From Armatimonadota bacterium (GTDB taxonomy: Bacteria > Armatimonadota > Fimbriimonadia > Fimbriimonadales > Fimbriimonadaceae), in NCBI GenBank assembly GCA_020438215.1, contig JAGQUX010000018.1, positions 1-57,980 of the forward strand: a stretch of 57,980 nucleotides of DNA. Reading direction: 5' to 3'. Positions 21,999 through 27,665 of this stretch are shown in pieces. The number at the start of each line of letters is the position of its first letter. The stretch's first letter is position 1. Both the position numbers and the translations under genes were made by a program. The notes below the pieces were generated by a model. That model was given only the letters and a program-made list of their open reading frames with translations. It was not told the origin of the DNA and did not search any database.

Positions 21999-23123
21999 GT
22001 GAAGCGCGCAGTTGTCCTCGGCTCAACCGGGAGTATTGGTCGCCAGACTCTCGACATCATTCGGCAGCACCCGGATGACCTCAAAGTGGTCGGCCTAGTC
22101 GCCAATAAATCGGCCCGCGCACTTGCGGAACAAGCTTCACTCTTTGGTGCCGAGAAAACCGCCCTCATGGACGAAGATGCGGCGAAAGCCGCTGGCGTCC
22201 CTGGAGGAATGGATGCCGTCATTGATGTCGCAACCATGCACGATGCCGATATCGTCGTGGTGGCCGTCGCCGGTGTGATCGGCCTGCAACCCACAATCGC
22301 CGCTATCGAAGCAGGGAAGATGATCGCCCTCGCCAGCAAAGAAGTTCTCGTTGCCGCCGGCGAAATCGTGATGCCGCTCATCAAAGAAAAGGGCATCACC
22401 ATGACCCCAATTGATAGCGAACACTCCGCGCTTTTTCAATGCCTCCAAGGCTATCAGCCGAACCAAGTCGATCGCCTGATCCTCACCGCGAGCGGCGGCC
22501 CGTTCCGAGGGAAAACAAAACAAGAACTCCAAGCCGTCACCACCAAGCAAGCCCTTGCCCACCCGACCTGGAGCATGGGCGGCAAGATCACTGTGGACTC
22601 CGCCACCCTCATGAACAAAGGGCTGGAAATCATCGAAGCGCGGTGGCTATTCAATGTCGCCATCGAGCAAGTCGATGTCGTCATCCACCCGCAGAGCATC
22701 GTCCACTCTTTTGTCAAATTCAAAGATGGCTCCGTGCTTGGGCAGTGCGGATGGCCCGATATGCGCCTCCCCATCCAATACGCTCTCCTCTACCCGCAGC
22801 GCAAACGCAACGACATGAAGCCGTGGAACCCGGTGGACACTCCCGAACTCACATTCGAGAAGCCGGACGAACATACATTCAAGAGCCTGCGCCTCGCCCG
22901 ATCCGCCGCCAGCGCGGGGGGAACCATGCCCTGCGTCTTCAACGCCGCAAACGAACATTGCGCCAACGCTTTCCTCGAAGGGGGTTGTGGATTCCTCCAA
23001 ATCGCCGATGTAGTAGAACAGGTGATGCTCCGTCACACCAAAGAGAAGGCGACCCTCGAGTCAATTCTTTCTCAAGATCGGTGGGCCCGCGAAACGGCGG
23101 ACAGCATTCTCAAGTCTGGATAA
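21999..23123 (+). CDS. dxr: 1-deoxy-D-xylulose-5-phosphate reductoisomerase
   Basis: The 374-residue NADPH-dependent enzyme converts DXP to MEP, the first committed MEP-pathway step. The nucleotide-binding motif VLGSTGSIGRQTLDI opens the protein; LASKEVLVAAGEIV, PIDSEHSALFQCL, the flexible-loop LTASGGPFRG, WSMGGKITVDSATLMNKGLE and DVVIHPQSIVHSFV follow. The start is GTG at 21999. It lies 6 bases before rseP, the widely conserved dxr-rseP arrangement, and is divergent from purF with an 84-base gap. Confidence 0.97.
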   Translation: MKRAVVLGSTGSIGRQTLDIIRQHPDDLKVVGLVANKSARALAEQASLFGAEKTALMDEDAAKAAGVPGGMDAVIDVATMHDADIVVVAVAGVIGLQPTIAAIEAGKMIALASKEVLVAAGEIVMPLIKEKGITMTPIDSEHSALFQCLQGYQPNQVDRLILTASGGPFRGKTKQELQAVTTKQALAHPTWSMGGKITVDSATLMNKGLEIIEARWLFNVAIEQVDVVIHPQSIVHSFVKFKDGSVLGQCGWPDMRLPIQYALLYPQRKRNDMKPWNPVDTPELTFEKPDEHTFKSLRLARSAASAGGTMPCVFNAANEHCANAFLEGGCGFLQIADVVEQVMLRHTKEKATLESILSQDRWARETADSILKSG

Positions 23124-23129
23124 GTATTC

Positions 23130-24773
23130 ATGGAAGTTCTCAATCAGCTAGGTCACGCGCTATTGACCGGGATCACGTTCCTGATCGTGATCACCGTTCT
23201 CGTTTTCTTCCATGAACTCGGACACTACTGGGTGGCGAAAGCGTGCGGAATGCACGTGGACGCCTTCGCAGTCATGATGGGCGGCGTCCGCAAAACTGAC
23301 CTCCGCGATAAGCTCAAACGACCCCTCGCTAGTTCGGCAATCATCTGGGCAGTCGGCTCAGTCATTGCCATTCTCGCTATCATCGGCGCAATGACCAGCC
23401 AGCAATGGCTCTTTATGAGTGCCGCGAGCCTCCTCGCCTTTGTCGGCCCATTCTGGGTGATCAGCCGACTTTCTCACCTCTACCACACCCCCATCCAGCA
23501 GGGAATCGGCACCTTGCTCAAATCGTGGGCGGTGGCGTTCCTTGTTCTCGCATTCGGCACCAAGCTCCATAACGTCGACTTTGGCTATGCGATCGGCCTT
23601 TTCCTCGCTGCATCGGCAACTGCCGTCCTCATCGTTTACTACTTCCCGGTCATAAACAAAGCGGAAGGCTCAAAAATGGGTGAAGGCATGATCGAGATGG
23701 ACGGAAATCCGGTGAACGTTTCCTTCCGGCCTCTCTGGAGCAAAACAAACAAAGAAGGAACCGAATTCTCCCTTCTCCTTCTCCCGCTCGGAGGATTCGC
23801 CGCCATCTCTGGAATGCACCCGAAAGAAGATGGAAGCGAAATCCATGTTGAAAACGGCTTTTTCAGCAAAGCCCCCCTCAAGCGATTAGCTACTCTCTTC
23901 GCTGGTCCGCTTTTCAGTTTCATCCTCGGTGTTGCCCTGGTCTTTATTGTCTTCATCGGGCGCGGCGAGCCGTATGGCTCTTCCATCGTGGATACCGTCG
24001 CCGAAGAATCTCCCGCCGCCAAAGCCGGAATTCAACCTAAAGACAAGATCGTCTCCATCAACGGCACCGAGATCGCGGATTTCGACGAACTGACTGAAGA
24101 AGTACGCTTCTCCTACACAGAGGCTGGAGAGAAGCCAACCCCCAAACCGCTTCTCATTAATTACTTCCGCGAAGGCGTCGGAAACATCGCCGTATCGGTG
24201 ACGCCCGTCATCAGCGACGAGCCAGAAGAAATTTTCAAAGAAGGGAAGTCAACCGGCGAAAAGAAATACATCGCCCGACTCGGAGTCACCTCTGCAATGG
24301 ATTACAAACCCATCCCTGCAGGTGAAGCCGCCGTCCGCGCCGTCGCCCTCCCCTACCGCATGAGCGTCGATGTCATCAAGGCGTTCACAAGCCTCAAGAA
24401 AGCACAGCAAACCGCAGGTGGCCCCGGTGCAATTGTGAGCGAAACATCCGACGCGGTGGAATCCGGAATCTGGCGAGTTCTGCTTCTGGCTGGATCACTC
24501 AGCATCAGTTTGGGAGTCCTCAATCTCCTCCCATTCCCGCCCCTTGATGGGGGTCAAATGGTGGTCGCGTTCATCGAAATGCTCCGTGGCAACAAGCGCC
24601 TCAGCCTCAAAACACAGAGCACTCTTCAAGCTATCGGAATGGGGCTCGTTGCTTTTATGATGCTCTTCGCATTCACCGTGGATGCCGGTCGTTCATCGGA
24701 TAAAAGCAAGCCGGAAGATATGTTCAAAAAAGATCAGTCTTCGGAATCCGCCGCGCCACCCGAAAGCGAGTAG
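23130..24773 (+). CDS. rseP: RseP-like site-2 intramembrane metalloprotease with inserted TM segments
   Basis: The 547-residue zinc protease cuts substrates within the membrane, such as anti-sigma factors. The HELGH site is at residues 28-32 in the first helix. One PDZ domain spans about residues 285-350 (DTVAEESPAAKAGIQPKDKIVSINGTEI), and the second active-site motif is LLPFPPLDGG near residue 473. Unlike E. coli RseP (about 450 residues), roughly 150 residues with four hydrophobic segments (about residues 68-180) are inserted before the TEFSLLLLPLGGF loop. A hydrophilic Ser/Glu-rich tail ends the protein. It follows dxr closely and overlaps the convergent neighbour by 40 bases. Confidence 0.92.
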   Translation: MEVLNQLGHALLTGITFLIVITVLVFFHELGHYWVAKACGMHVDAFAVMMGGVRKTDLRDKLKRPLASSAIIWAVGSVIAILAIIGAMTSQQWLFMSAASLLAFVGPFWVISRLSHLYHTPIQQGIGTLLKSWAVAFLVLAFGTKLHNVDFGYAIGLFLAASATAVLIVYYFPVINKAEGSKMGEGMIEMDGNPVNVSFRPLWSKTNKEGTEFSLLLLPLGGFAAISGMHPKEDGSEIHVENGFFSKAPLKRLATLFAGPLFSFILGVALVFIVFIGRGEPYGSSIVDTVAEESPAAKAGIQPKDKIVSINGTEIADFDELTEEVRFSYTEAGEKPTPKPLLINYFREGVGNIAVSVTPVISDEPEEIFKEGKSTGEKKYIARLGVTSAMDYKPIPAGEAAVRAVALPYRMSVDVIKAFTSLKKAQQTAGGPGAIVSETSDAVESGIWRVLLLAGSLSISLGVLNLLPFPPLDGGQMVVAFIEMLRGNKRLSLKTQSTLQAIGMGLVAFMMLFAFTVDAGRSSDKSKPEDMFKKDQSSESAAPPESE

Positions 24774-25558
24774 AGATAGTCCAGTTCTGACTTCACTTCT
24801 GCGACCGTCGTGGAAACCATCGGCTTAAGCAAAATTCGGCCCTGAAACTCAATGTTTCTGAGTTGCCGGAACATCTCTTTCCAATCCGTGAACCCATCCT
24901 GAACCGTCGCCCATCGACGTGCCCAACCTTTGCTGTTCGCGTCCTCTGCCCCCGGATGCTTCGTCAAAACATAGTCGCTGACCACCACGCTAGCGAGATA
25001 ATCCCCGAGCAGAGCAACCGTATAATCCCACGCCTCAAACCCTTCAAAAAGCTCACCCCCCGGATCAAGCCGCACCCCAAAACAGTAGGGAGGCAACCCC
25101 CGCACCAAGATAAACGCCGCCGACGGACTGGGAATCAAGCTCCCGCCCTTGACCGGCAAGATCAAGCGCATTTTGTGCTTTTCTAAAATCGGAGTGAGTG
25201 CTTCCAGTGACTCACGCGCTTTGGTCATCCGACTGCGGACAAAGTAGCCGAGCTTTGTCAGCTCCGCAATCGTAATGTCTTGAATCTCTCCTTCGGCAAG
25301 CTCGCGCAAAATGCCCGGCTCACCCTCCAGTTGCTTGAGCGAAAACTGCACTTCCGCCGATTCCACGCTCAGGCCCGCTTCGCGCAGGGCATTCACATGG
25401 GGCACAAACGATTCACTCAGCGTTTCCAGCGAGATTTCGCCTTGCTTAGGGACAATCACCGGCGCGGTATCGACATTGCAATTCCGCATGAACTCCGCCA
25501 GCTCCTTCGGCGAAGTTAAATTGAGTGGTTCTGGATGCAGTCCCCAAGTCAGATTCAC
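24734..25558 (-). CDS. Hypothetical protein, sugar-isomerase/epimerase TIM-barrel-like
   Basis: The 274-residue soluble protein has an alternating strand/helix rhythm (VIVPKQGEISLETLSES, AGLSVESAEVQFS, KHKMRLILPVKGG, CFGVRLDPGGELFEGFEAWDY, FQGRILLKPM) that resembles xylose-isomerase-like TIM barrels. The metal-ligand Glu/Asp/His set of that family is not obvious, so it may be a non-catalytic or divergent member. No signal peptide is seen. Its 3' end overlaps the end of rseP by 40 bases in convergent orientation. Assignment is by fold impression only. Confidence 0.6.
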   Translation of the reverse strand: MNLTWGLHPEPLNLTSPKELAEFMRNCNVDTAPVIVPKQGEISLETLSESFVPHVNALREAGLSVESAEVQFSLKQLEGEPGILRELAEGEIQDITIAELTKLGYFVRSRMTKARESLEALTPILEKHKMRLILPVKGGSLIPSPSAAFILVRGLPPYCFGVRLDPGGELFEGFEAWDYTVALLGDYLASVVVSDYVLTKHPGAEDANSKGWARRWATVQDGFTDWKEMFRQLRNIEFQGRILLKPMVSTTVAEVKSELDYLYSLSGGAADSED

Positions 25559-26777: not shown

Positions 26778-27056
26778 TTAAGATTCGTTCGGGGGGCCCT
26801 TGGCATCAATGGCGTCCCAACGCTCTTCAATGTTCTCCCACGCCATTTCGGGCTGTGCTTCTTCCGTTTTTGCAACAGATTCCACCGTCGCAAAATACTG
26901 CTTGATCGCATTCAGGAACGCGCGACATTTGGCGCATCGCGGGACGTGTAGCTTGGCGTATAGGGCGCGCCAGCCACGAAGATTGCCGCCAGCCATGCCG
27001 ACGACCGTGTCTCTCATGTGAGAACAAGGCTCAATTCCAACCGGAATATCTTTCAT
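26778..27056 (-). CDS. Zinc-binding anti-sigma factor (ZAS-like)
   Basis: The 92-residue protein has an H-x3-C-x2-C motif (His37, Cys41, Cys44 in HVPRCAKC), the hallmark of zinc anti-sigma factors, plus an earlier Cys11/His13. There is no membrane helix, so it is soluble and may sense redox stress through its zinc cysteines (inference). Its ATG overlaps the stop of the ECF sigma gene as ATGA, the usual coupling of a sigma factor with its inhibitor; this fixed the start at 27056. Confidence 0.8.
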   Translation of the reverse strand: MKDIPVGIEPCSHMRDTVVGMAGGNLRGWRALYAKLHVPRCAKCRAFLNAIKQYFATVESVAKTEEAQPEMAWENIEERWDAIDAKGPPNES

Positions 27057-27577
27057 AGTTGTATCACTCCTCGGGTTGTGAGAAGTTGAGCGAGTTTCAA
27101 CCTCGCCCGGTTCAAGCGACTGCGTACAGTTCCTATCGGAATCTCTAACGCTTCGCTTGCTTCTTGATAACTCATCTCTTCGATATCCACCATCACCACG
27201 CAAGCTCTTTGATCTGCCGGGAGTTGAAGCAGAACTTCCTCCCAGTGATGGCTCAATGCTTCGCGCTCCAGCATGGCGTCAACGCTGTCCCGTCCATCCT
27301 GAGTGCGGTGAGCAACCTCATCATCCCAGTGGATACGCTTATCACTTCTGACTCTTTGCAGGAAGTCTCGGGTGATCATGGTCATCAGATAGCTTTGCGT
27401 TCCTTCACCAAGCTTCAGCCGCCCATCCACATATCGCTGATAGGCAACAACGAATGCTTCTTGAACAAGGTCAGCGGCGAGATCAGAATCGGGATGCGCC
27501 AGCCGCCCCGCAAACCGCTGGAGATTAGGCGCGACTTCGCGAGCGAACCGCGCGAAAACTGTTCGCTTATCGCTCAT
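27053..27577 (-). CDS. ECF RNA polymerase sigma factor (with ZAS partner)
   Basis: The 174-residue protein contains region 2 (DLAADLVQEAFVVAYQRY, then YLMTMITRDFLQRVRSDKR) and region 4 (LPADQRACVVMVDIEEMSYQEASEALEIPIGTVRSRLNRAR), the layout of group 4 sigma factors. I chose ATG 27577, preceded by GGAG with a 6-base spacer; an upstream ATG at 27634 lacks a ribosome-binding site. It is divergent from the spondin-domain PEP-CTERM gene, and the gap between them carries mirror-image GGAACTTT elements. It probably controls itself and that neighbour. Confidence 0.92.
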   Translation of the reverse strand: MSDKRTVFARFAREVAPNLQRFAGRLAHPDSDLAADLVQEAFVVAYQRYVDGRLKLGEGTQSYLMTMITRDFLQRVRSDKRIHWDDEVAHRTQDGRDSVDAMLEREALSHHWEEVLLQLPADQRACVVMVDIEEMSYQEASEALEIPIGTVRSRLNRARLKLAQLLTTRGVIQL

Positions 27578-27665
27578 CGCCCGCTCCGGGTTCCATGCCG
27601 ATATGGCTGGTGGTGCCGCTGTCTCATAACTCATGAACAAAATTCAAATGCGCCAAACCCAGGCC

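Follow-up and report, generated by a model that had tools for sequence, protein, structure and literature searches.

Introduction

How site-2 proteases admit substrates to their buried active site is still a matter of debate. In the RseP proteins of Escherichia coli and Aquifex aeolicus, the HExxH motif lies on the first transmembrane helix (TM1), a PLGG motif in a membrane-reentrant β-loop, and the LDG motif on TM3; two PDZ domains are periplasmic, the GFG motif is intact, and TM1 is followed by the reentrant loop without intervening membrane helices. With its two PDZ domains, the E. coli enzyme comprises 450 amino acids and single-PDZ RseP proteins about 360–380, and RasP of Bacillus subtilis has a single PDZ domain. 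Residues G43-F44-G45 of E. coli RseP bind substrate and are crucial for proteolytic activity (review PMC12067869; PMC7728848), and a crystal structure shows Phe44 in contact with the inhibitor batimastat (PMC10024687). In the SpoIVFB system, substrate access to a site-2 protease is controlled by additional membrane segments, which are supplied by the separate proteins BofA and SpoIVFA (PMC9042235). No RseP with extra membrane helices, and no RseP of Fimbriimonadaceae, was found described in open-licence papers.

Here, an RseP gene is described from a 57,980-nucleotide stretch of DNA of an Armatimonadota bacterium (contig JAGQUX010000018.1), the whole of which is referred to as the window. An earlier note on the window had proposed an architecture variant of site-2 proteases with a four-helix membrane insertion that may gate the active site or recruit a partner. 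The architecture variant is supported by the occurrence of the insertion in 42 genomes, its confidently predicted fold, and its position beside the substrate-binding region. The protease itself is widespread, whereas this architecture variant is clade-specific and limited to part of one family; a role of the inserted module is inferred below.

Identity and Core Structure of the Protease

The gene and the features of its conserved core are as follows.

23130–24773, forward strand: rseP, 547 amino acids without an internal stop; site-2 (M50) intramembrane metalloprotease with an inserted four-helix module
23211–23225, forward strand: HELGH, residues 28–32, zinc ligands and catalytic Glu on TM1, from the translation
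23772–23816, forward strand: membrane-reentrant β-loop, residues 215–229 (E. coli 61–75), by alignment to 7w6x
23967–24308, forward strand: single PDZ domain, residues 280–393 (PF17820, PF13180, and PF00595, matching at 286–327)
24543–24551, forward strand: LDG, residues 472–474, with D473 as the expected third zinc ligand, from the translation
21999–23123, forward strand: dxr, DXP reductoisomerase, upstream of rseP (Pfam DXP_reductoisom, DXP_redisom_C, and DXPR_C)

It is near certain that the gene, with the anatomy given here, is the Fimbriimonadaceae orthologue of RseP (group I site-2 protease): the protein scores 164.3 bits against TIGR00054, above the curated cut-off of 147.55, and 150 bits against PF02163. 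The order dxr then rseP is the usual one; dxr adjoins rseP in 18 of 27 compared loci, the window counted among them, and is the sole frequent adjacent neighbour in these loci, with no new conserved gene beside rseP in the insertion-bearing clade. When the genome was searched for M50 peptidases, the hits were the present gene and an open frame of 166 residues (G000:C41:6-458). The present gene is thus the only full RseP seen in the genome, so that the insertion variant must carry the housekeeping work of RseP.

Among 46 aligned sequences, H28, E29, G31, and H32 are invariant, as is PLGG at residues 219–222, which lies within TEFSLLLLPLGGF (residues 211–223); the limits of the reentrant β-loop were taken from PMC4597795, and the strands of the β-region in the AlphaFold2 model are residues 212–215 and 218–226. 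D473, within LLPFPPLDGG (residues 466–475), is nearly invariant, and the two sequences failing the LDG pattern carry FDG and retain the Asp. The enzyme is accordingly predicted from these residues to be catalytically intact. An AlphaFold2 model of the whole protein, built from 46 sequences, reached a pLDDT of 92.9 and a pTM of 0.88, with pLDDT 91–97 over the insertion. Structural comparison of the model gave Z values of about 25–28 over 334–339 residues for RasP, E. coli RseP, and A. aeolicus RseP, the best match being RasP (9A6W, a RasP-EcsA model; Z 27.9 over 339 residues), followed by the E. coli (7W6X) and A. aeolicus (9J82) proteins with Z about 25–27 over about 334 residues; its PDZ domain likewise resembles RseP PDZ domains (Z 11–15). 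The whole-fold matches indicate that the core is ordinary. The protein nevertheless departs from the canonical four-helix architecture of the E. coli type in its four additional helices at residues 69–170 and its absent GFG. The comparison of its length with about 450 residues, as made in the earlier note, is true of the two-PDZ E. coli enzyme but is the wrong yardstick here; since this RseP has one PDZ domain, single-PDZ RseP proteins are the fair one.

Anatomy and Predicted Fold of the Insertion

23283–23726, forward strand: insertion, residues 52–199 (148 amino acids), delimited by the break in the phmmer alignment
23334–23393, forward strand: inserted membrane helix 1, residues 69–88 (DSSP on the model; mean Kyte-Doolittle 1.68 over 24 sequences)
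23403–23480, forward strand: inserted membrane helix 2, residues 92–117, containing invariant P107 and near-invariant R113
23493–23561, forward strand: inserted membrane helix 3, residues 122–144, from the model
23580–23639, forward strand: inserted membrane helix 4, residues 151–170, ending in invariant YY-x-P (170–173)
23682–23729, forward strand: extra β-hairpin, residues 185–200 (strands 185–190 and 193–200 in the model), leading into the β-region of RseP

In phmmer alignments with solved RseP chains, the query up to residue 51 corresponds to E. coli RseP up to G45 and the query from residue 200 onward to E. coli RseP from K46 onward, so that 148 residues have been added and none replaced. 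The earlier observation that HELGH and the LDG segment bracket extra residues is confirmed, and the four hydrophobic segments placed at about residues 68–180 correspond to the four helices of the model. When folded alone from 24 sequences, the insertion retained the four helices and the hairpin seen in the whole protein (pLDDT 93.2, pTM 0.84), and is thus predicted to be a self-contained unit. The model of the whole protein predicts that the helices and the hairpin adjoin the membrane-reentrant β-region. The four segments are similar in hydrophobicity to the core helices, and the entry linker has on average 3.6 Lys and Arg residues, the first outer turn 0.4, the inner turn 1.6, and the second outer turn 1.1. 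This charge pattern mostly fits an in-out-in-out-in path with an even number of crossings and a cytoplasmic start and end, the value of 1.1 in the second outer turn slightly weakening the argument. As both ends are predicted to be cytoplasmic, the topology of the remaining enzyme would be unchanged.

The insertion is under constraint, its invariant residues being G51, G52, R54, L58, P107, L117, Y118, Y170, Y171, P173, G184, and V197, and conservation is strongest in the entry linker, from P107 to Y118, and from Y170 to P173, namely at the predicted cytoplasmic ends; the cytoplasmic helix halves are only slightly better conserved than the periplasmic halves, a difference that is not significant (p = 0.11). 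The bodies of the inserted helices are variable, with a mean pairwise identity of 0.30 compared with 0.31 for the PDZ domain.

The insert has no convincing relative in Pfam, in PDB sequences, or among PDB folds. The best Pfam domain, DUF2301, matched one of 16 members with an E-value of 0.0098, below its cut-off, and was regarded as unconvincing; EcsB, BofA, and SpoIVFA were absent among the Pfam matches listed for the 16 inserts at E-values up to 10, a sequence-level comparison that a distant relation could escape. The best sequence match among solved structures (E 0.34, P2X receptors) was taken as chance. The insert alone gave a best E-value of 0.53 in Foldseek and a best Z of 5.8 with VIA, and these matches, many of them to designed bundles, were taken as reflecting a common arrangement: the insert is a small helical bundle, and novelty of the fold is not implied. 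Neither a second copy nor a free-standing form of the module was found in the genome.

Linked Change in the Substrate-Binding Motif

23256–23285, forward strand: C1N strand VDAFAVMMGG, residues 43–52, occupying the position of GFG (strand 43–50 in the model; MMG at 49–51)

Because GFG binds substrate and Phe44 touches batimastat, the splice point of the insertion lies at the substrate pocket. The first Gly of GFG is absent in all 37 insertion-bearing sequences compared, which carry MMG (22 sequences), MVG (11), FLG (2), MFG (1), or FMG (1). By contrast, G-x-G is retained in 36 of the 38 insertion-lacking sequences (GFG in 27 and another G-x-G in nine), and the two exceptions belong to another family of the order; these counts include loci from one genome or from close relatives and are not independent events. 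A substrate contact has thus changed together with the insertion, which we regard as the most telling result of the analysis and which is absent from the earlier note.

Distribution and Evolution of the Insertion

A profile of the insertion was compared with 291 genomes of the phylum. It matched 42 of the 85 Fimbriimonadaceae genomes, spanning 17 GTDB genera, whereas the RseP core was matched in 83 of the 85; presence was all-or-none in each genus seen, as judged from complete genes. The remaining 206 genomes of the phylum, which include other families of the order, gave no convincing match, and five weak matches beyond the family, with E-values from 1e-5 to 0.004, proved to be short or interrupted frames or to cover part of the profile, and were ascribed to chance. 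The expectation of conservation across Fimbriimonadia therefore holds within part of Fimbriimonadaceae and fails for the other families of the order and phylum that were searched.

In the class sampled around one alphaproteobacterial genome, 190 genomes were searched and all lacked the insertion. From a scan that took one genome for each species of bacteria and archaea, a sample that covers only some phyla, 80 loci were kept. Of these, L031–L057 contain the insertion; their names are Armatimonadetes, Armatimonadota, Chthonomonas, Chthonomonadaceae, or Fimbriimonadaceae, one being named just bacterium; in the other 53, nearly all from Alphaproteobacteria, the match is limited to the first helix and the adjoining strand. 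Alphaproteobacterial RseP proteins, which share the core length, the single PDZ domain, and about 30% identity with the present protein, differ in lacking the insertion and in carrying GFG or a close variant. The spacing from HExxH to LGG is about 187–213 residues in insertion-bearing proteins vs. 43 in every proteobacterial locus from which the gene could be extracted. The alternative, raised in the earlier note, that the four segments occur in most RseP proteins is contradicted by this spacing and by the confinement of the profile to the family.

The 33 insertion-bearing sequences all fell into one group in a FastTree analysis based on 364 core columns (support 0.757), and a fast IQ-TREE run recovered this group with weak support (SH-aLRT 51.6). 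The closest relatives on the core tree are the insertion-lacking RseP proteins of other Fimbriimonadaceae genera, in which G-x-G is retained. The simplest reading is that the insertion was gained once, which is suggested mainly by the shared site, residues, and motif change rather than by node support. Insertion-lacking members of the family have either a spacing near the normal 43–44 residues or hydrophilic inserts of about 10–60 residues in the same loop region. These inserts lie beyond the next strand, on the strand 2–3 side (GFGKKPIWTWMRKTY...insert...TTDFTVRPWPLGGF), and are a second kind of change in the same region; they occur at varied length, in the cytoplasmic loop beside the reentrant β-loop, in L172, L177, L179, L187, L189, L192, L196, and similar loci.

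Possible Role of the Inserted Module

The arrangement amounts to four helices, an even number, spliced between the C1N strand at the GFG position and the remaining reentrant β-region. The bundle would hang from the motif-bearing strand, next to the reentrant β-loop that presents substrates to the zinc, and would adjoin the active-site cleft where RseP substrates first bind. The GFG contact may have been replaced or reshaped by the bundle, and transmembrane substrates would have to pass or bind it before the reentrant β-loop hands them to the zinc, such that the module would most likely alter which transmembrane segments enter, or when. Our leading, tentative reading is that the module works in cis to control the access and the selection of substrates, with a probability of about 0.45. 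A narrower form, drawn by analogy, in which the insert would be a built-in regulatory gate that replaces the GFG site and acts as BofA and SpoIVFA do for SpoIVFB, appears unlikely.

Alternatively, the core may work normally and the module provide a surface on which a membrane partner docks, such as a regulator, a site-1 protease, a transporter, or a substrate carrier. Site-2 proteases do work with membrane partners, as SpoIVFB does with BofA and SpoIVFA (PMC9042235), the whole protein finds its best structural match in the RasP-EcsA model 9a6w, and co-adaptation with a partner could account for the variable helix bodies. However, docking leaves unexplained why GFG is lost at the splice point and has no conserved new gene beside rseP to accompany it in the clade, and we regard it as somewhat doubtful; the site directly after GFG, combined with the linked loss of the motif, favours an effect on substrate access over remote docking. 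A loosely constrained decoration is likewise compatible with the variable helix bodies; it would be a single insertion in a tolerant loop, retained since it folds and is harmless, and would affect stability or lipid packing only slightly. The hydrophilic inserts of insertion-lacking relatives attest to the tolerance of the nearby loop, and the helix identity of 0.30 is low; an inert or stabilising decoration is nonetheless a doubtful account of a module that has been retained across the 42 genomes and 17 genera, contains invariant residues, and is linked to a change in a substrate motif. The origin of the segments in a frameshift, a chimeric assembly, or a wrong gene call, the misreading that the earlier note had considered, is rejected as exceedingly improbable: the frame is open and free of stops through the insertion in 42 genomes, several of them single-contig assemblies, and the GC content of the insert (0.555) is close to that of the remaining gene (0.543).

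If the module acts in cis on substrate access, it may change what RseP cuts or when. The protein provides a natural large insertion at a known substrate contact point, with a conserved motif changed alongside, and, if the module controls access, its removal would directly test how the GFG region and the reentrant loop select substrates.

Other Genes Near rseP

A convergent TIM-barrel-like gene (24734–25558, reverse strand) overlaps the 3′ end of rseP with its own end by about 40 bases (24734–24773), and this neighbour is also present in L031–L033. Further downstream, an ECF-type sigma factor gene with Sigma70 regions 2 and 4 (27053–27640, reverse strand) is followed by a gene whose short, Cys/His-rich product has no Pfam match (26778–27203, reverse strand). 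This product could be a soluble anti-sigma factor; being without an obvious membrane segment, it is not an obvious RseP substrate. An aquaporin-type channel gene (PF00230; 25525–26298, forward strand) stands beside a gene of the low molecular weight phosphatase/arsenate-reductase type (PF01451; 26358–26771, reverse strand). The two constitute a possible arsenic-handling pair, and genes of both groups are found again near rseP in L031 and L032.
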